Source: Peltaster fructicola (lineage: Eukaryota; Ascomycota; Dothideomycetes). Taken from it: DNA of 64,000 nucleotides. Where the stretch lies: the NCBI GenBank assembly GCA_001592805.2, contig CP051140.1:186001-250000 (forward strand), given 5' to 3'. Below the pieces are notes generated by a model that was not told the origin of the DNA, searched no databases, and was given only the letters and a program-made list of their open reading frames with translations. The position numbers and the translations under genes were made by a program. Shown piece by piece: positions 16,487-41,039 of the stretch; within the stretch, counting starts at the first letter, position 1, and every line of letters begins with the position of its first letter.

Positions 16487-17735
16487 TCACGAAAGAAGAC
16501 CTCCTTTTTGGTATGCACCGTGTCTACCCGCAAATCCTCTTCTCTTAGGGGTATACACCCTGATCAAACCATAGCAGACACCAACAACCAGTGATCCCAA
16601 AACCAGCTTGGCGAAGATGCTAAGACCCTCGGTAGAGAGCTTTGGAACAGACTTTGAGACCTTTTCAGATGCAGAATCCATCGCAGAACCCAACTTCTCA
16701 GATGTAGAGCCTACGACAGAGCCAATCTTTTCAGATGTTGATCCCACGACCTTTTGTGCTTGCTCCTTAGCCTGCTTGACCTCCTCGACAGCGGCTTTGA
16801 CGATTGGCTTCTCAGTGACTGGTTTCTCCGTGGCCTCGGTCTCGTGCAAAGGCTCTACCGGCTCAGCATCGCTTTCCAGACCTGCGCAGGTGTCAGCTTG
16901 TACTACAGTCAGACCAGTATGTCAGCGGCATGTGTGGCCAGCATGTACCGGTCATACACACAAACACATACTGGTTTAAAGTTCTGCCCGGATACCTTCT
17001 TCTGGAACAGGAAGCTCTCCGCTCTTAGCGATCTTGACTGTCTTTGCTGGCTTGTCTCCTGCGCCTTTTGGCACGTTCTCGATCTTCTCGACGATGTCAT
17101 AGCCCTCGAGCACTTCGCCGAAGACAACGTGCTTGCCGTCGAGCCAGGAGGTGATGGCGGTGGTGATGAAGAACTGGGATCCATTGGTATCCTTGCCAGA
17201 GTTTGCCATGCCTGAGAAGGTTAGTTCATTGATTGTGGTGGCTCGATGGCTTTACATACTCATGAGACCTTTCTTGCTGTGCTTCAACTTGAAGTTCTCG
17301 TCTGCAAACTTGGCTCCATAGATACTCTTGCCGCCAGTGCCGTCTCCTTTGGTAAAGTCTCCACCCTGGATCATGAACTGCTTGATCACACGGTGGAAGG
17401 TTGAGCCTTGGTAGCCGAAGCCCTGCTCTCCGGTCGCTAATGACCTGAAGTTCTCGGCGGTCTAGACGAGTCAGTGTTCGGTTCAGGATAGACTGGGTGC
17501 ATCAGAGCAACATGTGTGCGTCAGACCAGCATTGTAACCCACACACCTTTGGTACAGTCTTGCCGTAGAGACCAATGACGATTCGTCCTATGCTCTCATC
17601 GCCGTGCTCAATGTCGAAGTAGACTTTAGAAGTTATTTTTGGGCCCTTTCCTGCCTCGGCTGTCTGAGAGAAGAAGACGAACGCGAAGGTCAGAAGGACC
17701 AGGAAGGACACAATGATACGCTGGAAGCTGGCCAT
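16487..17735 (-). CDS. ER cyclophilin with C-terminal membrane anchor
   Basis: Peptidyl-prolyl cis-trans isomerase of the cyclophilin B type, acting in the secretory pathway. Four exons: 17735-17547, 17461-17260, 17211-16996 and 16881-16487, giving about 333 residues. A signal peptide (residues 1-28, hydrophobic core [16 protein letters not shown]) is followed by a full cyclophilin fold with the catalytic [28 protein letters not shown] and [11 protein letters not shown] segments. The last intron (16882-16995, 114 nt) has an AAG|GTATCC donor, a CTGAC branch site and a GCAG acceptor. Splicing adds a tail with an 11-residue repeat ([20 protein letters not shown]) and a transmembrane helix ([20 protein letters not shown]) followed by a basic end. 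Without this splice the protein would end at IRAEL (stop at 16976-16978). Divergent from uS13m by 227 bp. Confidence 0.85.
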
Positions 17736-37308: not shown

Positions 37309-38060
37309 ATGTCTAAGAGAGCCGCAGAGGACGTTTGTGATCCAAGAGCGCCCAAGAGAATGGCTTTGAGGTAATGCAACCTGGAAAATTGAAGCTTTCA
37401 ACATATCTGATGACTTCATACAGTCTTGGTCCTGATCTCATTACGATCAAAGTGGGAACACAGCAGCAATCGTACTGTATCCACAGTCAGCTGCTATGCG
37501 CGGACTCTCAATTCTTCAGATCTGCGACCAAGAAGGAATGGAAGGAAGGACAAAACCGAGAGATTGCATTGCCAGAAGACACTACTGAGGTGTTCGACAT
37601 CTACATACAATGGCTTTACCAGAAAAAGATCCTTTGCCAGATCGACGACAGCAATCCTGTTGACAAAGAGGTGTCGGACCAGTACCGACTGCTCATCGAT
37701 GTCTTCATCTTCGGCGACAAAGTTCAGGATATCCCACTAAAGGATGCCACGATCAATGCGCTCTGCAATCTATCTGACCTGCGCAATGAAAAGAACTTAT
37801 GCATCGACCCTACGGGTGTGAACGTCACGCGCGCATACAGAGGTACCATGCCCGGATCCCCTCTACGCAAGTTCTTCGCCACTCTTTATTCCTGGTTTAC
37901 GCTGCCAAGTTGGTCAACGAAGGAATGTCCGGTCGAATTGAAAGACGCTGTTCTGGTTGCATTGCTAAGCAGACGCGTCGCGACGCCTCCATGGTGGCAG
38001 TGGCAACCGTGCTCCATGCACGAGCATATCGAATCGTATATTTGTCCTGTGGAGGACTGA
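37309..38060 (+). CDS. BTB/POZ domain protein
   Basis: Small BTB protein of the kind greatly expanded in filamentous fungi, often proposed as cullin-3 adaptors or scaffolds. Two exons: 37309-37370 and 37424-38060, intron 53 nt with a CTGATGAC branch region; about 232 residues. The N-terminus MSKRAAEDVCDPRAPKRMAL looks like a nuclear signal. The BTB core then reads SLGPDLITIKVG, CIHSQLLCADSQFFRSA, EGQNREIALPEDTTEVFDIYIQWLYQ, in the normal order. The spliced start was preferred over the open frame that begins at 37374, because that frame runs through the intron. The function beyond protein binding cannot be told. Confidence 0.75.
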
Positions 38061-38402
38061 TCCAGGAAGCAATCTTGGACTTCGTGCAGCGCTACACCAA
38101 GGTATCTTGCTTGAGGAGTGCAAGCCAGCCATCAAGAGCAAGCTAGGACATCTGATTCATTTCCAAAGCCTGGATGCGTATGCGAAAGCTCGGGCACAAG
38201 GATTTGCAGTAGAACTATCTACACATGGTCGGAAGGCGTGCATGTTTGTGAGAAGAATGATACAAGTGTCTAACTCTGCCCAGCATCTTCGATGGTAGCG
38301 CCTTCCACTTGCGTCTCCATCTTTACAATTCCCCATCCCTTCTTAATCCGTTCCTCTCCGACCTCTTCCTTCTACGTGCGCAGGTCTCATCTTCCTCACA
38401 AC
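38061..38402. other. BTB 3' flank and MSH4 promoter
   Basis: About 340 bp. A frame in another phase runs through 37799-38146 but only as a shadow of the BTB gene. No separate gene is supported. Confidence 0.4.
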
Positions 38403-41039
38403 ATGCCTATCAATTCAGTTGCGGCTCCGACTCCGTCTGTAGCGACCATGTCTCGCCCAGGCACTAGCCATCGATATGTCACAAGACCAGGAACATCACG
38501 ACCACGCTCGGCAGTGTCGACCCTTGGCGTCGAAAATCAAGAGATCATTTGTGCCGTCAGTGAGTCACGAGGCATTTCGCCAGTCGTCGGAATCTCCTTC
38601 CTCAATCTCGATACTGGTGAGGCGGTCATGAGCCAAATCAACGACAGCCAGACATTCGTCAGGACAGTACACAAGCTTGCAGTCTTCAATCCGTCAATCG
38701 TCCTTATCGTCTCCAGCGCGGCGGAATCGAAGTCGAAGCTATTCAGCATTCTTCAGGACAGTCTGAACGATATCGAGGGCGACATCGTCCTGCTAGATCG
38801 TAGATACTGGGCAGAGTCGACAGGTCTTGAGTACCTGGAGAAGCTCGCCTTTCGAGAAGACCTTGAAGCACTCAAGACAGCTGTCAGTGGCAACTACTAT
38901 GCTGTCTGCTGCTTCGGCGCGGTATGTGCGACGACCACTCTTTGACTTTGCTGACATGATCAGGTCCTACGATACATCGAGCTTGGCTTGTGCAAGACAT
39001 TTCCCTACCACTCCCTGCGCATCAAGTACGAGCCAGCAGAAGGGTGTATGATGATCGACGTAGCCACCATCCGCGCCCTTGAGCTCGTCCAGAACCTCAC
39101 CCACATCAAGTCGAGGGAATGCTTGTTTGGTTTGCTCAACGAGACACTGACACCCATGGGTGCAAGACTGCTACGAAGTAGCGTCCTTCAACCTCTCACC
39201 AACGCCGAGACCCTTGCCGCACGTTATGAGACAGTGGAGGAGCTCGGCACCAAGGAAGAGATGTTTCTAGCAGTCCGCACTGCACTAAAGCCGTTCCTGG
39301 ATGTCGATCGAACACTCACACAACTGATTCTCATACCGACGCAGTCGTCTCTGTTAAGCACAGAGCAGGCCATCAACCAGGTCCTCATGCTCAAACAGTA
39401 TATCAGCCTCATTCGGCCAGTCTACGATGCAACCATGGGCACTACAGCTTCTTTGTTGAAAGAGATTCACCTGCTATGTGCTCCGAAGAATATCTTGCCA
39501 ACGCAGACTCTGGTCAACGAAGTCCTCAACACAGATGCAACATTTGCAAGCAAGTCTCTTGAGCTTCGTAATCAGAGAACCTATGCTGTCAAATCAGGAG
39601 TCAATGGCATGCTTGATATCGCTCGACAGACTTACAAGGAGACTATGGGAGATGCGATGCGCTACATCAGCGATCTAGCTGATGAGCATGATCTGGCGCT
39701 GCAGACAAAGTTCGACAATGCCAGACGCTTCTACATGCGTATTGGCCGTGAGGATCTCGAGGCTCGCACCTTGCCGACGGTCTTCGTCAACGTCTTTCGC
39801 AAGAAGGAATGGATCGAATGTCAGACCTTGGAGCTGCTGAAGCTGAATCAGAGAATGTCGGACTCTCATTCTGAAGCAATCTCGATGAGCGACAAGTCCA
39901 TCCAGGAGCTGATCGTCAAGGTACGAGAGCACATTGCACCTCTTTTCAAGATCTGCGAGGGCGTTGCGATGCTCGACATGCTGGCTTCCTTCGCACAATT
40001 GGCCAGCACTCACGGGTATACTCGACCACAGCTCAATGCTACACTGGCGCTCAAGACAAGCAAGCATCCCATACGTGCGAAGATGCAAGGGACGCAGCAT
40101 GTCCCCAACGATGTCTACGCTACCCAGCAGAAACGCTTCCACATCGTTACAGGATGCAACATGAGCGGAAAGAGCACTTACATCCGTTCAATCGCACTGA
40201 TCACGATCATGGCCCAGGTCGGGAGTTTCGTGCCTGCTGACTTCGCATCAATTGCAGTTCGTCATCAGCTACTAGCTAGAGTATCAACCGACGACAGCAT
40301 CGAGGCCAATGTGTCAACCTTTGCTGCCGAAATGCGAGAAGCTGCATTCATCCTTAACAATGTCGATCGTGAGAGCATGGTCATTGTTGATGAGCTCGGA
40401 AGAGGCACGAGCACAAGAGATGGTCTGGCTATTGCCATTGCCATCGCGGAAGCATTGATCGAGAGTCGTGCACTGGTGTAGTTCGCCTCGCACTTCCACG
40501 AGCTTGCTAGTGTGCTTGCTGAGCGGAATGGTGTCGTTAATTGTCATCTGGCTGTCGACAACTCGAGAGCCGACAAGATCGAGATGCTCTATCGAGTCAC
40601 ACCAGGTGCCGTACAGGATCGGCACTACGGCATCAAGCTTGCTAAAGTGTTGCCAATCCCAGCAGTTGTGATTGAGACAGCCGAACTAGTGTCGTCGACC
40701 CTGGAGCAGATGAACCAACGACGACCAACCATGTCCCTGGCTATTATCACCGCGAGGAAGCGGAAGCTCTTGTTGAACCTGCAGGAGCACCTCACACAGG
40801 CTCGGGATAGTGGCATAGATGGTCCCGAGCTGACCACGTGGCTGACGCAGCTGCAGCGCGAGTTTGTGGTCCAGATGTCCATCCTTGATGACGAGGAGCG
40901 AAAGCTCGTCGGAGATCAGTCCGAAGCAGTACTTGAGACTGAGCTCGATGGTGAAGTTGTTATCGAGTCCATCGAGCAAGATGTCGATATGCATCATCCT
41001 CCGGGCTCTTCTACGAGCATCATCTTCCCAAGTGATTGA
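38403..41039 (+). CDS. MSH4: meiotic MutS homologue MSH4 with one in-frame TAG
   Basis: MutS-family protein that pairs with MSH5 to stabilise crossover intermediates in meiosis; it has no N-terminal mismatch-recognition domain. Two exons: 38403-38921 and 38964-41039, intron 42 nt; the full frame would be about 864 residues. The clamp/lever region is followed by the ATPase: Walker A TGCNMSGKSTYIRSIAL near residue 568, ST.AAEMREAAFIL, and Walker B VIVDELGRGTSTRDG. At 40479-40481 a TAG interrupts the frame (codon 679), between ESRALV and FASHFHELASVLAERNG; homologues are expected to have Trp there. The remaining 185 codons are intact and clearly MSH4-like. This is either a nonsense mutation, a base error or an mRNA editing site. 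Confidence 0.88.

Follow-up and report, generated by a model that had tools for sequence, protein, structure and literature searches.

An in-frame TAG codon at a conserved tryptophan position in the MSH4 gene of Peltaster fructicola

The window, by which we mean the whole stretch of 64,000 nucleotides of Peltaster fructicola DNA that was analysed, carries on its forward strand a gene with MutS III, IV and V domains that is nearer to MSH4 than to other MutS homologues, and the frame of this gene is interrupted by a single TAG codon. P. fructicola lives on apple surfaces, and the window is part of its chromosome 2 (C2:186001-250000). The features of the locus, together with a hairpin predicted for the RNA around the stop, are as follows (window positions).

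38403..38921, + strand: MSH4 exon 1, 173 codons from the ATG at 38403, in agreement with the public protein
38922..38963, + strand: MSH4 intron, 42 nt, GTATGT...CAG; the spliced residues match the public protein
38964..40478, + strand: MSH4 exon 2, the part 5' of the stop, with MutS III, MutS IV and MutS V as far as the stop
40468..40493, + strand: predicted RNA hairpin with a 5-nt loop UAGUU (40479-40483) and a stem formed by 40475-40478 and 40484-40487
40479..40481, + strand: in-frame TAG, codon 679 of the spliced frame, where the aligned relatives have Trp
40482..41039, + strand: MSH4 downstream frame, 185 codons and a TGA terminator, with the rest of MutS V and the C-terminus

The spliced frame runs for 678 codons, meets the TAG and continues for 185 codons up to its terminator, exactly as the original prediction had described it, and the observation of the interrupting stop is thereby confirmed. 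Full exon 2 (38964-41039), when read through the TAG, contains the MutS III, IV and V domains, and the stop, at residue 509 of this piece, falls inside MutS V (397-583). In MSH4 translated as written MutS V is incomplete, 75 of its 187 match residues being located behind the stop, as is the whole of the C-terminus. The best protein match to the frame is the public P. fructicola record AMS68_002186 (100% identity, 73% of the query), which starts at the second Met of the modelled exon 1 and stops at ...ESRALV, immediately 5' of the TAG.

Both strands of the window were scanned for single stops flanked on each side by frames of at least 60 codons. Among the 14 best candidates the MSH4 TAG (508 + 185 codons) is second by coding score, and no other candidate combines, on both flanks, a length above 100 codons with a score that is clearly coding-like; the top candidate is a TAA at window position 17252 on the minus strand, with 69 + 91 codons that are coding-like on both sides. 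Upstream of MSH4 (window 37341-38298) a 239-codon frame ends at 38060 and another frame runs on, which could represent an unrecognised intron or a broken gene.

The homologue search returned 3452 proteins at E <= 0.001, of which the 120 best were taken, and the alignment consists of 119 of these, the truncated record of P. fructicola itself being left out. MSH4 of these 119 relatives is 60-69% identical to the read-through query, and the column of the stop holds Trp in 119/119, as expected in the original prediction, which had proposed TGG for this codon. None of the 120 columns from 640 to 759 has more than 3% gaps among the listed relatives. MSH4 of other Dothideomycetes (e.g. Cladosporium, Hortaea) is like that of P. 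fructicola in having the orthologous frame at full length and differs from it in the Trp at the stop position. In the genome six MutS V loci are present, one of them MSH4-like (66.7% identity to Cladosporium MSH4) and the other five with 24-32% identity to the same protein; there is no second MSH4 copy among the six, and only at the MSH4 locus does a stop lie inside the MutS V match.

The most likely reading, and in our view a probable one, is that the TAG is a recent nonsense allele (Trp679 to stop). On this reading an evolutionarily young change of Trp679 would have arisen in the sole MSH4 gene found, and translation as written would yield 678 residues, with the Walker A and B parts retained but the last 75 residues of the MutS V match missing, among them the conserved Thr/Ser-His-Phe loop, and with no C-terminus at all. 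Judged from the architecture of MutS proteins, the cut MSH4 very probably cannot serve MSH5 as a working partner when meiotic crossovers are formed. A meiosis-specific gene would be dispensable in an isolate with one mating type that is grown and kept vegetatively, and a broken allele could therefore persist until sex is needed; single-spore, conidial culture of P. fructicola is described (PMC7181583; 2016 genome paper). The sequence itself shows the stop, the part that is cut off, the Trp of all aligned relatives and a remainder that is intact, while the loss of MSH4 function, the recency of the stop and the absence of a bypass are inferred. The otherwise whole frame, the shared Trp and a rate of MSH4 evolution that is not accelerated speak for this reading. 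Plain nonsense mutation, which the original prediction had kept as an alternative, accounts for the data without a new editing lineage: it fits everything and needs nothing new. Against it, a random nonsense change would rarely take the TGG-to-TAG form, and A40480 is predicted in a hairpin loop, a position frequent among edited sites; the price of this reading is accordingly a coincidence of a few per cent, softened by the way in which the finding was selected.

If MSH4 is only broken, the isolate is probably unable to make MSH4-MSH5 crossovers while keeping the rest of the tested meiotic toolkit. A comparable case is the sporeless Pleurotus ostreatus, in which MSH4 is likewise singly interrupted in an otherwise normal fungus; there the interruption has a shown phenotype, whereas the P. 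fructicola case is known from sequence only (PMC7641404, accessible text). In Verticillium dahliae, which has no observed sexual state, meiosis genes including MSH4 and MSH5 are reported to be under purifying selection, and its MSH4, unlike that of P. fructicola, is uninterrupted (PMC4226480, accessible text).

MSH5, joined across a 44-nt intron, is lesion-free, and SPO11, a HOP1-like HORMA gene, MER3, ZIP4/SPO22 and an MLH3-like gene show no lesion in the parts read; introns were modelled for MSH5 and for two MER3 intervals, and the rest was read in parts. The Rad51 family has a single full match genome-wide (C5:567755-568489), and therefore at most one of RAD51 and DMC1 is represented by a full match. 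An HMG-box gene at C3:2331673 lies in a locus (C3:2326501-2337000) where a PH/MMM1-domain gene is on one flank and Exo_endo_phos (APN2-like) and ANAPC5 (APC5-like) genes are on the other. Because such genes are the usual neighbours at a mating-type locus, the HMG-box gene is read as a putative MAT1-2-1 and the locus as MAT1-2-like. The names HOP1, MLH3 and MAT1-2-1 are putative, given on the strength of domains and characteristic motifs. The genome search for an alpha-box gene gave no match, but the search controls likewise gave none. With six other meiosis genes lesion-free in the parts read and a MAT1-2-like gene present, sex is not obviously lost, which counts against the recent nonsense allele. 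A 558-residue MSH5-like protein is 72% identical to P. fructicola MSH5, while the other listed relatives reach at most 57%; judging from this identity, its source is probably a close relative of Peltaster.

The strongest alternative, possible though unlikely, is that the codon is recoded in sexual tissue: the Tad2-Tad3 deaminase complex would turn UAG to UIG, which is read as UGG, and full-length MSH4 would be made only where meiosis occurs. Such editing would restore exactly the Trp of the relatives, in a gene that acts only in meiosis and whose codons 3' of the stop are conserved. The TGG-to-TAG change makes up just 1.5-4.2% of the single-step nonsense routes in the MSH4 frame (kappa 1 to 6), and this rarity is the stronger point for editing, since A-to-I editing restores the ancestral residue; the value is not to be taken at face value, because the site was singled out, in a large scan, for its editing-like look.

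The immediate context of the site is less telling. Edited As in Fusarium graminearum are preceded by U at -1 in 85.74% of cases, with a preference for A or G at +1 (PMC4817773, accessible text). The U before A40480, to which the original prediction had drawn attention, and the G after it are indeed present and count in favour of editing, but both are dictated by the codon and are therefore uninformative. The weaker Fusarium preferences (U at -2, G at -3, G at +2, A/G at +3 and +4; PMC4817773, accessible text) are met at 0/5 positions around A40480, although they are weak in Fusarium itself. A hairpin, for which the original prediction had asked to look, is predicted, with the UAG codon as the first three bases of the loop and GGUG/CGCC as the closing stem. 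A40480 is in the loop at 9/11 fold lengths; in the 101- and 121-nt folds, and also in a separate 141-nt fold, it falls in a stem. The 31-nt stretch folds at -9.9 kcal/mol, which 8/200 shuffles equal, whereas the fold of the 61-nt stretch is not unusually stable (41/200 shuffles as good). With 61-nt folds the chance of an A in the loop is about a third (59/169 TAG trinucleotides from 26 window ORFs and 55/176 TGG codons changed in silico), to be compared with the 62.4% of F. graminearum edited sites reported in hairpin loops for folds with 30 nt per side (PMC4817773, accessible text); a local hairpin as stable as that at A40480 occurs at 10/169 TAG trinucleotides.

On the one hand, the site resembles the premature-stop-correction (PSC) genes of F. 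graminearum (PUK1, AMD1, FgAMA1, FgRID), in which a sexual-stage gene has an in-frame UAG that a single A-to-I change converts to UGG, giving full-length protein (PMC4817773, PMC5496914, PMC11156358): MSH4 too has a UAG in an otherwise whole frame where orthologues have Trp. On the other hand, in those genes editing was seen in RNA and in a Sordariomycete, whereas here it would be deduced from DNA and in a Dothideomycete. In the accessible text of PMC11156358, fungal A-to-I mRNA editing is named for Sordariomycetes and Pyronema, no editing is reported in A. nidulans or B. cinerea, and the question of which fungal classes edit is called open. The contact between Ame1 and Tad3 is reported to have arisen in Sordariomycetes by a Lys-Asn to Met-Val change, which argues against editing here, and for Pyronema, in which the Ame1 gene is duplicated, a separate origin of editing is suggested (PMC11087585, accessible text). 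P. fructicola has two DUF726 genes, in which the residues 31 and 30 before the active-site Ser, counted without alignment to Sordariomycete Ame1, are Ser-Leu and Ala-Asn rather than Met-Val. The named homologues of the shorter DUF726 protein among the 120 listed are from other Dothideomycetes, save one record labelled Quercus suber, and the gene is therefore not a duplicate private to P. fructicola.

The literature found, as far as its text was accessible, holds no report of A-to-I mRNA editing in Dothideomycetes, a lineage that one paper mentions for AMD1 orthologues only, and MSH4 is not named among its edited fungal genes. Publications retrieved for A-to-I together with msh4 concern, by title, only mouse embryos, the IGF system in cancer and glioblastoma lines, and no report of an edited MSH4 was found in the literature searched, to which most subscription papers and all bioRxiv preprints did not belong. 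Moreover, in the parts read, the other six meiosis genes can all do without such an edit. Further lesions in MSH4 or MSH5, which the original prediction had named beforehand as speaking against editing, were sought and none was found. Of that prediction the gene, the TAG, the Trp and the basic context have stood; its step to editing is left as a possibility, since nothing here shows editing and the literature searched gave no report of it in a Dothideomycete. Editing would explain the TGG-to-TAG coincidence but requires an unreported editing lineage, and we consider it doubtful that A-to-I editing in a Dothideomycete, outside the two reported classes, gates MSH4, and hence crossover formation, by sexual stage. 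If MSH4 is edited, a third class with fungal mRNA editing would be added, with a core crossover gene that depends on it.

An assembly or base-call error, the genome truly reading TGG, is improbable. The difference is a substitution, which is a less likely type of assembly error than an indel. The five contigs analysed (18,987,130 bases) appear to correspond to the published LNHT1506 genome, described as five chromosomes of 18.99 Mb from a fungus that groups with Capnodiales; it was assembled from ~406x Nanopore data and with SPAdes using Illumina data, and polished by Pilon with ~256x Illumina, then by Nanopolish and by Pilon again (PMC7181583, accessible text). Given two rounds of polishing with Illumina and one with Nanopore data, the base error that the original prediction had listed loses most of its appeal. 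What speaks for it is a DUF726 gene of the same assembly (C2:3598305-3599341, minus strand, AMS68_003595), in which a frameshift lies inside a conserved stretch and may be an error. The public model avoids this frameshift, other Dothideomycetes have homologues without it, and it reflects an indel error of the assembly or else a true lesion of the gene; errors or real lesions therefore occur elsewhere in the assembly.

That MSH4 decayed long ago in an asexual lineage, where other lesions would be expected, is disfavoured and very improbable. Some observations are in keeping with it: a DMC1-like second Rad51 match is absent from the genome, and the accessible text of the two P. fructicola genome papers yielded no mention of sex, mating or meiosis in a word search, the 2016 paper describing single-conidium colonies with no mention of asexual or of ascospore. 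Columns that are invariant in the relatives are changed in 3/19 cases 3' of the stop (T682S, D686E, I690V) and in 6/103 cases 5' of it, and no relative has more than 4 plus 1 such private changes (5' plus 3'). This excess might reflect a relaxation of constraint, but the presence of close relatives in the set of 119 depresses the counts of the others, and for that reason it was not relied on.

Rates and lesions speak against old decay. The relative rate, defined as the mean distance of the species to nine others divided by the mean distance among those others, is 1.79 for MSH4 (1.91 5' of the stop and 1.51 3' of it), 1.88 for MSH5 and 1.58 for the DUF726 protein. The nine genera or species were hand-picked from those common to all three homologue lists, with one protein each; the Cladosporium species is not identical across genes, P. 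fructicola MSH5 was represented by its public record, and the DUF726 control was truncated 5' of its frameshift. By these distances the P. fructicola lineage is long-branched in all three proteins and MSH4 is not special, its 3' part being no faster. There is no other stop or frameshift in the 864 codons of MSH4, and MSH5 and the other partners are without lesion in the parts read. With 2.83% of substitutions creating a stop (kappa 4) and indels assumed at 10% of substitutions, MSH4 would have escaped any further lesion with a probability of 0.085 if neutral divergence were 1% and of 0.007 if it were 2%, which caps neutral drift at roughly 1% divergence. Neither the additional lesions nor the raised rate of a decayed pseudogene were thus found, despite the changed invariant columns behind the stop. 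Without acceleration and without other lesions, the stop is therefore young, or else harmless or bypassed.

The original prediction had also considered a RIP-like C-to-T change on the opposite strand, and this is unsupported: TpA/ApT is 0.457 in MSH4 (2nd percentile of the window) and (CpA+TpG)/(ApC+GpT) is 1.40 (74th percentile), both deviating in the direction opposite to RIP, and a RIP origin is rejected. The genome has a C5 DNA methylase domain (C1:1011047-1012141) within an open frame that, at 1957 codons, is unusually long, and a second methylase gene at C4:1251891.

Bypass of the TAG by programmed or leaky translational readthrough or by a suppressor tRNA would likewise yield full-length protein and would agree with the conserved downstream frame of MSH4, but there is very little to recommend it. 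The TAG is followed by TTC, to our knowledge not a readthrough motif, and TAG terminates 5/17 of the other stop-to-stop frames in the window that span 250 or more codons (the MSH4 frame left out), which also makes a general reassignment of TAG unlikely. No tRNA genes were found in the 64-kb window.

That the TAG sits in an unrecognised short intron can practically be dismissed and is rejected, as each of the 20 frame-keeping GT..AG intervals of 38-150 nt that span it would remove at least 16 gap-free columns, at least 9 of them at least 97% conserved, and at the distance tested none of the 20 shows a match to the CTRAY branch site. The check was needed because MER3, in the same genome, has an in-frame TAG that resembles a splice acceptor, so that short introns of this kind do occur in P. 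fructicola. The MER3-like gene (C3:2582220-2583131, minus strand) has three in-frame stops, all within a pair of intron-like intervals (45 and 46 nt), and the removal of both leaves a single open frame, which makes the gene well suited as a control for findings on stop codons in P. fructicola. The stops in another HORMA match, which we take to be MAD2-like, were regarded as introns on sight.
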